Below are positions 26,187 to 46,994 of a stretch of DNA of 46,994 nucleotides, piece by piece. A program made the position numbers and the translations under genes. Where the stretch lies: the NCBI GenBank assembly GCA_903876765.1, contig CAIRBH010000014.1, positions 1-46,994 of the forward strand, given 5' to 3'. Positions within the stretch are counted from its first letter, which is position 1. Every line of letters starts with the position of its first letter. This stretch comes from an uncultured Pseudomonadota bacterium (lineage in GTDB: Bacteria > Pseudomonadota > Gammaproteobacteria > Burkholderiales > Methylophilaceae). Below the pieces are notes generated by a model, which had not been told where the DNA came from, did not search any database, and was given only the letters and a program-made list of their open reading frames with translations.

Positions 26187-27446
26187 CTATTGTCTGAGCT
26201 TCAGATTGGCTGCAATACGCAATCTCAAGGCATTTAACTTAATAAATCCGCCAGCATCTTTTTGATCATAAGCCCCTTTGTCATCCTCAAAGGTGGCAAT
26301 ACTAGAATCAAATAATGAATTGGTTTGACTATCTCGGCCAGCGACTATCACATTGCCTTTATAAAGCTTAACGCGTACCCAGCCATTAACCACGGCTTGC
26401 GTATGGTCGATCAGGGTTTGAATAGCAACACGCTCAGGGCTCCACCAATAACCGTTATAAATCATGCTGGCGTAACGAGGCATGAGGTCGTCTTTTAAGT
26501 GCGCCACTTCGCGGTCTAAGGTAATAGATTCAATCGCACGATGCGCTTTGAGCATAATTGTACCGCCTGGCGTTTCATAGCAACCGCGTGACTTCATGCC
26601 CACATAGCGGTTTTCTACTAGATCTAGACGACCTATGCCGTGTTTACCACCGATTTTATTCAAATGTGCTAGTAACTCATGTGGTTTCATGGCCTCACCG
26701 TTTAAGCTCACGGGGTCGCCATTGACATACTCTATGTCTAAATATTCAGCCGCATCAGGCGCTTTTTCAGGGCTGACACTCCATCGCCACATAGATTCTT
26801 CGGCCTCGGCCGCAGGGTCTTCTAAATGCCGGCCTTCGTATGAAATATGCAATAAATTAGCATCCATACTATATGGGCTGCCACCTTGCTTATGTTTCAT
26901 CTCAACGGGTATGCCATGAGTTTGGGCATAAGCCATGAGTTTTTCACGACTTAATAAATCCCACTCACGCCAAGGCGCAATAATTTGAATATTAGGGTTT
27001 AAAGCGTATGCGCCCAATTCAAAACGAACCTGATCATTACCTTTGCCAGTCGCACCATGTGAAATGGCGTCAGCATTAGTTTCACGGGCAATTTCTATCA
27101 AACGTTTGGCAATTAAAGGCCGTGCGATTGAGGTGCCTAATAAATACTCACCTTCATACACGGTATTTGCACGAAACATAGGAAAAACGAAGTCACGAAC
27201 AAACTCTTCACGTAGATCATCAATATAAATCTCTTTTACCCCAGCCGCCTTGGCTTTAGACCGAGCAGGCTCTAATTCTTCACCTTGGCCTAAGTCAGCA
27301 GTAAATGTAACGACTTCACATTGGTATTCATCTTGCAACCACTTCAAAATAACCGACGTATCTAGGCCACCTGAATAGGCTAGAACAACTTTTTTCACTG
27401 GTTTTTTTGCACTTTTATTGTCTGTACTCATATTGTCTGTACTCAT
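26187..27446 (-). CDS. argG: Argininosuccinate synthase
   Basis: The 419-residue enzyme joins citrulline and aspartate with ATP in arginine synthesis. Family marks are the PP-loop [10 protein letters not shown], the segment [30 protein letters not shown] and a final [10 protein letters not shown]. The first ten residues are a duplicated MSTDN (see the repeat entry), so the start may be ATG 27446 or 27431. It is the last gene of argD-argF-argG, 3 bp after argF. Confidence 0.96.
27417..27446. repeat. Duplicated 15-bp unit containing the argG start codon
   Basis: On the minus strand ATGAGTACAGACAAT occurs twice in perfect tandem (27446-27432 and 27431-27417). Both copies give an ATG in the argG frame. 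The outer copy lies directly after the argF stop. Confidence 0.85.
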
Positions 27447-27449
27447 TGC

Positions 27450-28364
27450 TTAAACTTTTCCTAATAATAAATATTCCATTAATGCTTTTTGCACATGCAA
27501 ACGGTTTTCTGCCTCATCCCATACCACAGATTGGCTGCCATCAATCACTTCTGCCGAGACTTCTTCACCACGGTGCGCAGGCAAACAATGCATAAAAAGT
27601 GCATCTTTAGCTGCTACTCGCATCATATCGCTATCGACTTGCCAATCGGCAAAGTCGCGCAAACGCTCTTCATTCTCCGCCTCAAAGCCCATGCTAGTCC
27701 AAACATCAGTGGTCACCAAGTCAGCGCCACGCGCCGCATCCATAGGGTCAGCAAATACTTCAAAGTGATTATTGCCATATAAATTTGCACGCTCAGGTTC
27801 AACTTCATAGCCTGGCGGCGTAGACACATGTACGTTAAAATCTAGCACCTCTGCGGCCTGCAGCCAAGTGTTACAAACGTTATTGCTATCCCCTATCCAT
27901 GCGACAGTTTTACCTTGTATAGAGCCACGATGCTCAATATAGGTAAAGATGTCTGCCAAAATTTGGCAGGGGTGATATTCATTGGTGAGGCCATTAATGA
28001 CAGGCACACGAGAATTGGCGGCAAAGCGCTCTATGATTTCCTGCTCAAAAGTACGTATCATCACCACGTCACTCATGCGCGAGATGACTTGCGCGGCATC
28101 TTCTACAGGCTCACCTCTGCCTAACTGTGAATCACGCGTATTCAAATAAATAGCTGAGCCGCCGAGTTGCTGCATACCTGCCTCAAAAGACAAGCGAGTT
28201 CGAGTGCTGGCTTTTTCGAAAATCATCACCAACGTGCGGTCTTGCAAAGGCCAATATTGCTGATAGGCCTTAAATTGGCTTTTAATGAGGCGTGTACGCT
28301 CAAACACATACTCAAGTTCTTGGCGGTTTAAGTCGTTAAATTGTAAAAAATGTTTTATTGCCAT
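27450..28364 (-). CDS. argF: Ornithine carbamoyltransferase
   Basis: The 304-residue enzyme makes citrulline from ornithine and carbamoyl phosphate. It has the carbamoyl-phosphate motif STRTR, the HPCQILADIFTYIEH region and the ornithine-binding FMHCLPAHRG near residue 270. Its length is normal for the family. It lies between argD (72 bp upstream) and argG (3 bp downstream) and is probably co-transcribed with both. Confidence 0.96.
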   Translation of the reverse strand: MAIKHFLQFNDLNRQELEYVFERTRLIKSQFKAYQQYWPLQDRTLVMIFEKASTRTRLSFEAGMQQLGGSAIYLNTRDSQLGRGEPVEDAAQVISRMSDVVMIRTFEQEIIERFAANSRVPVINGLTNEYHPCQILADIFTYIEHRGSIQGKTVAWIGDSNNVCNTWLQAAEVLDFNVHVSTPPGYEVEPERANLYGNNHFEVFADPMDAARGADLVTTDVWTSMGFEAENEERLRDFADWQVDSDMMRVAAKDALFMHCLPAHRGEEVSAEVIDGSQSVVWDEAENRLHVQKALMEYLLLGKV

Positions 28365-28436: not shown

Positions 28437-29618
28437 CTAGCTGTTTAAGAATGTTTTAATTAACTTAGCCAAACGCTGAACCAACTCGTTAGCCTCAGAT
28501 TCGTTGATGACTAGCGGGGGCAGCAATCTAACTACTTTATCTGCGGTCACGTTAATCAGCAACTTGGCCTCTAACGCCATTTTCACCAAACTCCCACAAG
28601 GTCTATCTAATTCTATGCCTATCATTAAACCTGAATTGCGCACTGCTAACACCTCAGGGCTATTTTTAAACTCAGCCTCAAAGCCTAAACGAATTAAATT
28701 ACCCATTTTCTCAGCGTTTTTGCACAGGCCTTCTTGTTCTATTGCCTGCAAAGTAGCCAAACCAGCCGCACAGGCCAAGGGATTGCCGCCAAAAGTTGAG
28801 CCATGCTTGCCATACGTCAACACCTCAGCAGCCCTGCCACTAGCCACACAAGCCCCAATGGGGACGCCCGACCCTAAGCCTTTGGCTAAACTCATGACAT
28901 CTGGTTTAATATTGCTGTGCTGAAAAGCAAACCAAGTGCCAGTGCGGCCTATGCCTGTTTGTACTTCATCTAACATCAGCAACCAGCCTTGGGCATCGCA
29001 AATTTGCCGCAATGTTGCTAAATAAGCACTTGCATCTTTCGGAATATTAATACCACCCTCACCCTGCACAGGCTCGACCAAAATAGCCACCACATTAGCG
29101 TTACGTGTGGCCACTTGTTTAACCGCCTCAATGTCGTCATAAGGCACACGAATAAAGCCGCTGACCAAAGGCTCAAAGCCCGCTTGTACTTTACGATTGC
29201 CCGTGGCCGAGAGCGTTGCCATGGTACGGCCATGAAATGACTTATCCATGACGATAATTTCAGGATTGCTAATGCCTTTATTGTGGCCATACAAACGCGC
29301 TAATTTGATGCTAGCTTCGTTCGCTTCGCAGCCAGAGTTGCAAAAGAACACTTTATCCATGCCTGAGACTTCACATAATTTATCGGCCAAAGCCGCTTGC
29401 TCAGCAATATGATAATAATTAGAAACGTGTATCAGTTTGGCCGCTTGCTCGCTGATGGCTTTGACCAGCTTAGGGTGTGCGTGGCCTAAACCATTGACTG
29501 CCACGCCAGCTAAAGCGTCTAAGTACTTCTCGCCTGCTGTATCCCAAAGCCAAACGCCCTCCCCTTTAACAAAGGTCACGGCTTGACGCATATAGGTATT
29601 CATTAAATGATCTGACAT
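28437..29618 (-). CDS. argD: Acetylornithine aminotransferase
   Basis: The 393-residue class III PLP aminotransferase converts N-acetylglutamate semialdehyde to N-acetylornithine. Motifs include FCNSGCEANEASIKLAR, KSFHGRTMATLSATGN, LDEVQTGIGRTG and the PLP-binding lysine in MSLAKGLGSGVPIGA. It is the first gene of the argDFG operon. A strong intrinsic-terminator-like hairpin lies in its leader only 24 bp before the start (see 29643-29669), suggesting control by premature termination. Confidence 0.95.
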   Translation of the reverse strand: MSDHLMNTYMRQAVTFVKGEGVWLWDTAGEKYLDALAGVAVNGLGHAHPKLVKAISEQAAKLIHVSNYYHIAEQAALADKLCEVSGMDKVFFCNSGCEANEASIKLARLYGHNKGISNPEIIVMDKSFHGRTMATLSATGNRKVQAGFEPLVSGFIRVPYDDIEAVKQVATRNANVVAILVEPVQGEGGINIPKDASAYLATLRQICDAQGWLLMLDEVQTGIGRTGTWFAFQHSNIKPDVMSLAKGLGSGVPIGACVASGRAAEVLTYGKHGSTFGGNPLACAAGLATLQAIEQEGLCKNAEKMGNLIRLGFEAEFKNSPEVLAVRNSGLMIGIELDRPCGSLVKMALEAKLLINVTADKVVRLLPPLVINESEANELVQRLAKLIKTFLNS

Positions 29619-29642
29619 AACATTCTTTAAATTAAATTCAAT

Positions 29643-29669
29643 AAAAAACGGCGACTGATGCCGCCGTTT
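29643..29669 (-). terminator. Intrinsic terminator in the argD leader (possible attenuator)
   Basis: Minus-strand RNA would fold AAACGGCG/CGCCGTTT (8 bp, loop GCATCAGT at 29661-29654) and run directly into six U residues (29648-29643). The plus strand has no comparable T tract, so it works towards argD. No gene ends here: the next gene to the right is divergent. It must therefore stop a leader transcript or a small RNA. Confidence 0.65.
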
Positions 29670-29674
29670 GTAAC

Positions 29675-29710
29675 TTATGCAAGTGGATTGATCATGCGGC
29701 GCATGTCCAC
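29675..29710 (-). other. Hairpin and Arg-codon mini-ORF in the argD leader
   Basis: On the minus strand GTGGA and TCCAC (29710-29706, 29687-29683) enclose an inner CATGC/GCATG stem with a 5-nt bulge. The same stretch holds a mini-ORF (29704-29675) reading Met-Arg-Arg-Met-Ile-Asn-Pro-Leu-Ala-stop, with two CGC codons in positions 2 and 3. There is no spaced Shine-Dalgarno sequence. A -10-like TATAAA (29717-29712) would place the transcript start almost at the ATG. The hairpin is seen; translation of the mini-ORF is conjecture. Confidence 0.35.
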
Positions 29711-29863
29711 GTTTATAATGACATACTGCTCATGGAAAGATTAACAATTATTAAATATTGTTATCGATCAGACAATAGGTGTGAGATTATCTGAAAACCC
29801 CTGAATTGGCAAGCCTAGCGCTCACACTAAGCGCTTATAAACAATACTTTAGCGAATATATTC

Positions 29864-30793
29864 ATGTTGAAAAAATTACTGACTAATATAAGCAATAGCC
29901 GCCTGCCTAATTTAGGTAGCTTATGGATGTTAGTTGCCGCGCTTGGCTTTGCCATCATGGGTGCGCTAGTGAAAATAGGCGCAGAAAAATTTAGCAGCAG
30001 TGAATTGGTTTTTTATCGTTCGCTATTAGGTTTAATCGCCATTTATCTCTACATTTGGCATAAAAAACTGCCGCTTGCTAGCCCTGTTATATTCAAACAA
30101 ATATCGCGCGCGCTGGTCGGCTTTGCCTCGCTGGTGCTGTTTTTTTATGCCATTGCCCATTTACCTTTAGCAACTGCAATTACCCTCAACTACACATCCC
30201 CGTTATTTTTAGCGCTATTCACGCCATTTTTATTAGGCGAAAAACCAAAAAAAATCTTGTTTATTGGATTGCTGATTGGCTTTAGCGGGGTCAGTTTATT
30301 GCTCAAGCCCACCCTCAATACGGCCAATTGGTTAGCAGGCAGCTTAGGTTTGCTGTCAGGTTTTGGTGCTGCACTGGCTTATGTGCATGTAAAACAACTA
30401 GGCAAGGTCAATGAGCCAGACTGGCGTACGGTATTTTATTTCACACTGATTTCAACGATTTGTGCAGGCACATGGATGATAGCAACCCCTGAGCAGATGG
30501 CCAGCACTAGCCAAAATAGCTATCAGCTGCACGGCTTTCATACCATTAGCTGGCAAGATTTACCCATTTTATTCGGCTTAGGCCTGTCTGCTACCATCGC
30601 ACAATTAGCCATGACTCGCGCCTACCGCACTGGTGATACCTTGGTAGTAGCCAGTTTAGCCTACGTGACGGTAGTTATAGCGAGCTTATTAGGGGTGCTA
30701 TGGTGGCACGAACATCTAAGCCTAGCTGACTATCTAGCCATAGCTTTGATTATCTTAAGCGGTATTATTAGCCTGCGCAGCACGCAAGGCTAA
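29864..30793 (+). CDS. EamA/DMT-superfamily transporter
   Basis: The 309-residue protein has about ten membrane helices in two EamA repeats (about 18-150 and 165-300). Features are the internal FYRSLLGLIAIYLY, ATAITLNYTSPLFLALFTPFLLGEKP and a C-terminal GTDTLVVASLAYVTVVIASLLGVLWWHE-like segment (here RTGDTLVVASLAYVT). Substrate is unknown; relatives include S-adenosylmethionine and amino-acid transporters. It is divergent from argD and converges on orn with 9 bp between the stops. Confidence 0.85.
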   Translation: MLKKLLTNISNSRLPNLGSLWMLVAALGFAIMGALVKIGAEKFSSSELVFYRSLLGLIAIYLYIWHKKLPLASPVIFKQISRALVGFASLVLFFYAIAHLPLATAITLNYTSPLFLALFTPFLLGEKPKKILFIGLLIGFSGVSLLLKPTLNTANWLAGSLGLLSGFGAALAYVHVKQLGKVNEPDWRTVFYFTLISTICAGTWMIATPEQMASTSQNSYQLHGFHTISWQDLPILFGLGLSATIAQLAMTRAYRTGDTLVVASLAYVTVVIASLLGVLWWHEHLSLADYLAIALIILSGIISLRSTQG

Positions 30794-46927: not shown

Positions 46928-46994
46928 GGCGGAGCGGACGGGACTCGAACCCGCGACCCCCTGCGTGACAGGCAGGTATTCTAACCAACTGAAC
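46927..46994 (-). tRNA. tRNA-Asp (anticodon GUC), 5' end beyond the window
   Basis: The minus strand reads the D-arm, the anticodon arm CCTGC-CTGTCAC-GCAGG with anticodon GTC (46969-46967), the T-arm with GGTTCGAGTCC and an acceptor strand ending in encoded GCCA. About 9 nt of the 5' acceptor strand are missing because the window ends. tRNA-Asp GUC is one of the four queuosine-modified tRNAs, so it is a substrate of the QueD/QueG pathway encoded here. Confidence 0.95.

Follow-up and report, generated by a model that had tools for sequence, protein, structure and literature searches.

The window, that is, the whole 46,994-nucleotide stretch of DNA analysed, comes from an uncultured member of the Methylophilaceae and carries a cluster of arginine genes on its minus strand. 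The first gene, argD (28437..29618; 393 aa), matches Aminotran_3 (PF00202). Pfam gives the superfamily, and the name argD rests on the position of the gene beside argF and argG and on an earlier note on this DNA. It is followed on the same strand by argF, encoding ornithine carbamoyltransferase (27450..28364; PF00185 and PF02729), and argG, encoding argininosuccinate synthase (26187..27446; PF00764 and PF20979). On the other side of the argD start lies a divergent gene for an EamA-family transporter (29864..30793, plus strand; PF00892). When the whole window was compared with Rfam at the gathering threshold, the sole match was a tRNA gene truncated at the end of the window (46930-46994, minus strand; Rfam tRNA, 47.6 bits), and the segment 29600-29900 gave no Rfam match at E up to 5. 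A known Rfam riboswitch or leader family was ruled out, as no covariance model matched the argD leader.

In the 5' leader of argD we found an intrinsic terminator hairpin followed by U6 (29643..29669, minus strand), recognized by its fold, its terminator score and its presence in relatives. The stem (29669-29646) has 10 pairs, 6 of them G-C, a loop of 4 and a folding energy of -15.5 kcal/mol; U6 occupies 29648-29643 and the argD ATG, at 29618, comes 24 nt further on. We scored hairpins by d, from an intrinsic-terminator scoring scheme in which d > 0 was taken as terminator-grade, and the hairpin in the window reached d = 33. The 95-nt leader folds with -25.7 kcal/mol (z -2.63), and equal or greater stability was seen in 2 of 200 shuffles. 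The earlier note had described a terminator with U6 24 nt before argD, with no other gene there for it to end. Its coordinates and description hold, and because the EamA-family neighbour is divergent, the terminator is needed by no upstream gene in the window. In attenuators of the trp/his type, too, the leader of an amino-acid operon carries a terminator. What the argD leader shares with them is an intrinsic terminator standing before the first structural gene.

Two alignments of leaders were used for the surrounding elements: A2, with 12 close leaders, and a separate set of 13 leaders with the same layout. A distal promoter candidate, TTGCCA-N17-TAATCT (29784..29812, minus strand), was aligned in the 13 leaders, of which 11, picked like the other rows by a loose form of the motif, have exactly TTGCCA and TAATCT. 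A looser promoter scan added a weak, possible proximal promoter, TTTCCA-N15-TATAAA (29712..29738, minus strand; 9 of 12 positions), and ATTRTAA stands at this place in 6 of the 12 A2 rows. Between the terminator hairpin and the ATG of argD the standard scan found no promoter-like site; among the best 12 sites of the looser scan there was one weak 9-of-12 pair, with its -35 between hairpin and ATG and its -10 inside argD. The terminator lies between a candidate promoter and the start codon, an arrangement that is kept in relatives (promoters here being sequence matches). In 9 of the 13 same-layout leaders (L018, L020, L019, L206, L021, L026, L025, L027 and L041) the terminator stem lies 115-117 nt from the distal -10, and the sequence in between is hardly conserved. 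At the argD-argF junction we also noted a promoter-like TAAACA-N17-TATAAT (28447-28419, minus strand; 10 of 12), from a scan whose number of sites was about equal to that in shuffles; argFG may have a start of its own there and so escape the leader terminator.

The recurrence of the hairpin was examined in upstream DNA from 35 argD loci of the genus, 123 other loci of the order, 40 more family members and 79 named loci. An ArgD search of 200 genomes of the order (E up to 1e-115) gave 135 matches, including the genome of the window (G000), and left 65 genomes without a match; among the 134 other genomes with a match, 12 were left out of the upstream set. In the 170 nt ahead of argD, 88 of the 123 order loci and 20 of the 35 genus loci carry a hairpin with a U-tract. 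Strong hairpins at most 60 nt from the argD start were found in 63/123 order and 10/35 genus loci, compared with 6/264 control ORF starts. The score d exceeded 0 at 51/118 order loci, 15/35 genus loci and 31/45 further family loci, the last set including 13 extra genus members; among controls it did so at 5 of 280 gene starts and 12 of 292 gene ends. When the T requirement was dropped, the scan returned a hairpin in 76 of 123 order loci against 24 of 280 controls. At least five T followed within 10 nt of the stem in 68 of these 76 hairpins and in 6 of the 24 control hairpins, and the 10 nt before the stem were T-rich in 9 of the 76.

The stem itself is also recognizable across the order. Its usual form before argD is ACGGCGGC-n4-GCCGCCGT, often lengthened by GCAC/GTGC. 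CGGCGGC occurs in the hairpin at 62 of 123 order and 16 of 35 genus loci but at none of 264 control starts, and this heptamer or its complement was seen in 1 of 40 strong terminator-like hairpins of control DNA. Variant stems still pair: AACGGAGGC with GCCTCCGTT in small-genome Methylophilaceae, GGGCGGC with GCCGCCC in one family (f34) and CACTCGGCGGC with GCCGCCGAGTG in another (f33). Changes on both sides affected 11 of 12 stem pairs, a level that none of 500 shuffles reached, in a comparison biased by the selection of rows for complementarity. Alignment A3 held 67 of 76 distinct hairpins; the nine left out (L107, L067, L175, L155, L165, L055, L109, L139 and L101) were rpsT-type, unrelated or register-shifted. 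Covariation of both leader stems had been proposed in the earlier note as a check, and across the 12 A2 rows the terminator pairs in 90% of cells. At four loci from some members of f15, f36 and f48 (L090, L110, L138 and L148) the 5' arm CGGCGGC is kept despite a changed upper 3' arm, and the outer GCACACGG/CCGTGTGC stem alone pairs. The arm sequence may thus be kept for more than pairing.

In 33 of the 38 families scanned, one locus or more has a terminator-like hairpin before argD, by a crude scan that also picks up terminators of neighbouring genes. The same scan gave no hairpin in f6 (0/3), f18 (0/4) or f26, f30 and f38 (0/1 each), and a hairpin in 1 of 4 loci of f49. Several Methylotenera, for example L022, L028, L030 and L032, lack the hairpin and keep the promoter-like element. 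The hairpin is dispensable, as these Methylotenera and the f6 loci indicate. The same four Methylotenera loci carry TTGCCA-N17-TAATCT/TACTCT with a similar spacer (around GGTTTTCxGC) and no terminator; a spacer conserved in this way suggests a regulator site. We examined 79 of 80 named loci, since L226 had too little upstream DNA. Sixteen of the 79 had no hairpin, and those with one included Sulfuricella sp. T08, Thiobacillus denitrificans RG, Thauera phenolivorans and Aromatoleum toluvorans. Of 30 named loci whose records are titled as gamma-proteobacteria or a subgroup of them, 19 had a hairpin at most 85 nt from the start; most of these stems differ in sequence, as in Thiorhodococcus minor and two Thioalkalivibrio. 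Judged by this distribution, the predicted terminator is older by far than the species of the window.

Searches for the arginine repressor ArgR found no N-domain (PF01316) over the cut-off in 200 genomes of the order, with two weak sub-threshold matches; G000, about 90% complete, was without any PF01316 match. The C-domain (PF02863) was found in none of 61 relatives, and ArgR in none of 11 further named genomes (nine gamma- and two beta-proteobacterial, two of the 11 without the hairpin). With no ArgR-family match over the cut-off, argD could not be placed in an ArgR regulon. This agrees with the available part of PMC5343134, in which ArgR is conserved in many gamma-proteobacterial groups and absent from other classes.

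The genomes were searched for the same type of hairpin elsewhere. With model R1 the argD hairpin was the top-scoring place in 12 of 16 genomes, 13 of which had supplied training rows for the model. It came second in G000, was not the best in G056 and G078 and was not found in G205, and in G113 the opposite strand scored higher at the place of the argD hairpin. The window itself matched R1 on both strands, with 29.5 and 22.2 bits. Of 14 R1 loci inspected elsewhere, 8 lay within about 60 nt of a gene 3' end, 4 inside predicted frames and 2 in other places, so that hairpins of the argD type also stand at the positions of ordinary terminators. Taken with the d > 0 scores and the T-tract on the 3' side, these gene-end hairpins indicate that a terminator function fits the argD hairpin best. 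The pattern TTGCN{12,17}TTCGGNTAAATATA had seven matches in 6 of 18 genomes. The promoter motif was rejected as the sign of a regulon; six of the seven precede argD itself. The seventh (L199; G073:C15:59660) duplicates the promoter-like element and the stem found at G073 argD, in another context.

A terminator before argD could have been inherited from an upstream neighbour, such as rpsT or a membrane-protein gene of PF06181, and now insulate or damp argD without regulating it. The type of hairpin, shared with gene ends elsewhere, would suit such an origin. By eye, 22 of 32 Methylophilaceae loci outside the genus have the hairpin some 15-40 nt after the point where an upstream gene stops; this gene belongs to PF06181 in L046 and L068, and the hairpins of these 22 loci could be the simple end of that gene. 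L065 has the rpsT terminator only, and the f25 loci look alike by eye. Across the order, a same-strand frame stops at most 80 nt upstream of 49 of 81 hairpins, although such frames may be spurious, and at 72 of the 123 order-set loci there was no strong control over neighbours. Against this origin, the neighbour in the window is divergent, and 32 of the 81 order hairpins, from 19 families, have no same-strand frame of at least 60 codons ending within 80 nt upstream. In L053 and L064, rpsT (PF01649) is followed by its own separate terminator and then by the argD promoter-like element and hairpin (order by eye). The -10-like elements enriched just 5' of the stem also oppose it. Of 86 loci, 33, representing 20 of 32 families, have a -10-like hexamer at a distance of 0-29 nt ahead of the stem, and in the other 53 none was found within 29 nt. 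Counted in 15-nt bins, the first two bins next to the stem held such hexamers in 15 and 19 of the 86 loci (shuffles: 3.7 and 3.8), and lesser excesses came at 45-59 nt (11/86 versus 2.5) and 105-119 nt (10/86 versus 3.6). Moreover, 59 of 86 hairpins end at most 40 nt before the ATG, which leaves scarcely enough space for a promoter between hairpin and gene. On balance, we consider inheritance without regulation unlikely as the account of the hairpin as a whole.

The hairpin might instead be a 5' stem-loop that protects the end of the mRNA, with the U-tract aiding the ribosome as a translation enhancer and little or no termination. By eye, the stem lies near the inferred transcription start in f33, f37, f42, f45 and f47 (in four of five f37 members it begins about 3-12 nt after a -10-like element, with a poor U-tract), and at several loci the U-rich stretch extends into the ribosome-binding site. 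However, the scores are often terminator-grade, most of the T-rich tracts flank just the 3' side, and the distal -10 in the window is about 115 nt from the stem, which makes a stabilizing role improbable. Still less probable is a stand-alone small RNA, the terminated 5'UTR transcript acting in trans and argD readthrough being secondary. The promoter-like element and the terminator would delimit a short RNA, and a comparable 5'UTR RNA, P32, precedes carA in Pseudomonas in the available part of PMC4997734, but the interval between promoter and stem is poorly conserved in the genus and its length varies between families.

The earlier note had read the locus as an attenuator-like leader controlled by an Arg-Arg mini-ORF in a second hairpin. 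This hairpin does exist (hairpin 1, 29683..29710, minus strand; inner stem CATGC-GCC-GCATG; -8.8 kcal/mol by folding), as does the 9-codon ORF in it with two CGC codons after its ATG (MRRMINPLA, 29675..29704, minus strand; ATG CGC CGC ATG ATC AAT CCA CTT GCA TAA). Its Shine-Dalgarno sequence is unconvincing by eye, with GTGGA alone, 1 nt from the ATG. In A2, 4 of 12 leaders keep the ATG, 3 have one or more Arg codons behind it and 2 have both; among the 13 same-layout leaders, both codons occur in the window and in G020 (MRRMINPVA) only, and G015 has one (MRCMINLEN). The whole sequence from promoter to terminator is poorly conserved in close leaders and the terminator is kept. The inner helix of hairpin 1 pairs in 79% of A2 cells, 3 of its 5 pairs showing changes in both arms, and its outer helix in 53%; most of the 12 rows are predicted to fold otherwise, and the RNAalifold consensus of close leaders predicts the terminator alone. 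The covariation score of the whole leader structure was reached in 200 of 500 shuffles, and hairpin 1 is therefore not established.

By the energy model, only one upstream segment pairs strongly with the 5' arm of the terminator, GCCGC at 29700-29696 (-11.3 to -11.5 kcal/mol). This segment overlaps the Arg codons, which are at positions 2-3 of the peptide, and would be hidden by a ribosome stalling on them, contrary to how trp/his attenuators work; stalling at the control codons in the window would not, on these energies, free an antiterminator. In addition, at the 33 of 86 order loci with a -10-like element within 29 nt of the stem, a leader peptide would have little space, if any. The argD leader, unlike those of the trp/his type, has neither conserved control codons nor a conserved competing antiterminator. 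Despite the related peptides in G020 and G015, attenuation of argD through an Arg-codon leader peptide is hardly credible. MRRMINPLA is probably not functional, an Arg-codon peptide is unlikely as the sensor, and no conserved sensor of any kind was seen in the argD leader. What stands of the earlier reading is a leader terminator before argD, recurring far beyond the genus; control by the Arg-Arg peptide does not.

Together, these comparisons support, with reasonable but not high confidence, a promoter-proximal intrinsic terminator, or attenuator, in the argD 5'UTR that does not work through an Arg leader peptide. Transcription of argD would start upstream of 29669, at the distal TTGCCA-N17-TAATCT and perhaps at the proximal promoter too, and the polymerase would meet the intrinsic terminator ahead of the argD start codon. 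Some transcripts would then end near 29643 as a short RNA and others would read through into argD. Since the terminator is widely kept in the argD 5'UTR, it most likely sets or regulates readthrough in these bacteria without ArgR, that is, acts by transcription attenuation. Termination in vivo, regulated readthrough and a signal related to arginine are all what we infer from the sequences. More tentatively, beta-proteobacteria and some gamma-proteobacteria lacking ArgR may control argD, or argDFG, through the promoter-proximal terminator. As its leader is often too short for a peptide or a riboswitch, readthrough would in that case need a factor that works on the polymerase or the hairpin, a new kind of arginine control in place of ArgR.

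A close likeness is the Pseudomonas P32 leader, in which, according to the available part of PMC4997734, a promoter is followed by an intrinsic terminator in the carA 5'UTR and attenuation was proposed; in P. syringae DC3000 no leader peptide was found there and the 3' end was mapped at the terminator. P32 and the argD leader are closely similar in placing a terminator in the 5'UTR of an arginine-pathway gene. They differ in the gene, which for P32 is carA, with a marked ArgR site that is known from P. aeruginosa, and in the transcript evidence behind P32 (PMC4997734, same part); the argD leader is a prediction from sequence. The carA (SRC-12-1) motif of beta-proteobacteria, mostly Polynucleobacter, is likewise a candidate cis element before an arginine/pyrimidine gene; the available part of PMC8632094 describes it as an extended imperfect hairpin beside the ribosome-binding site and a proposed translational riboswitch. 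No earlier report of the argD leader terminator was found in the accessible portions of the literature searched; a word search found neither argD nor arginine in PMC2965389 and neither argD nor argF in PMC4423775. ArgR regulation has the same target genes but acts through a DNA-binding repressor.

The locus also illustrates that a chance Arg-Arg mini-ORF can mimic a textbook attenuator. For beta-proteobacteria without ArgR, the hairpin before argD would offer one defined, easily tested cis element for the control of arginine synthesis.
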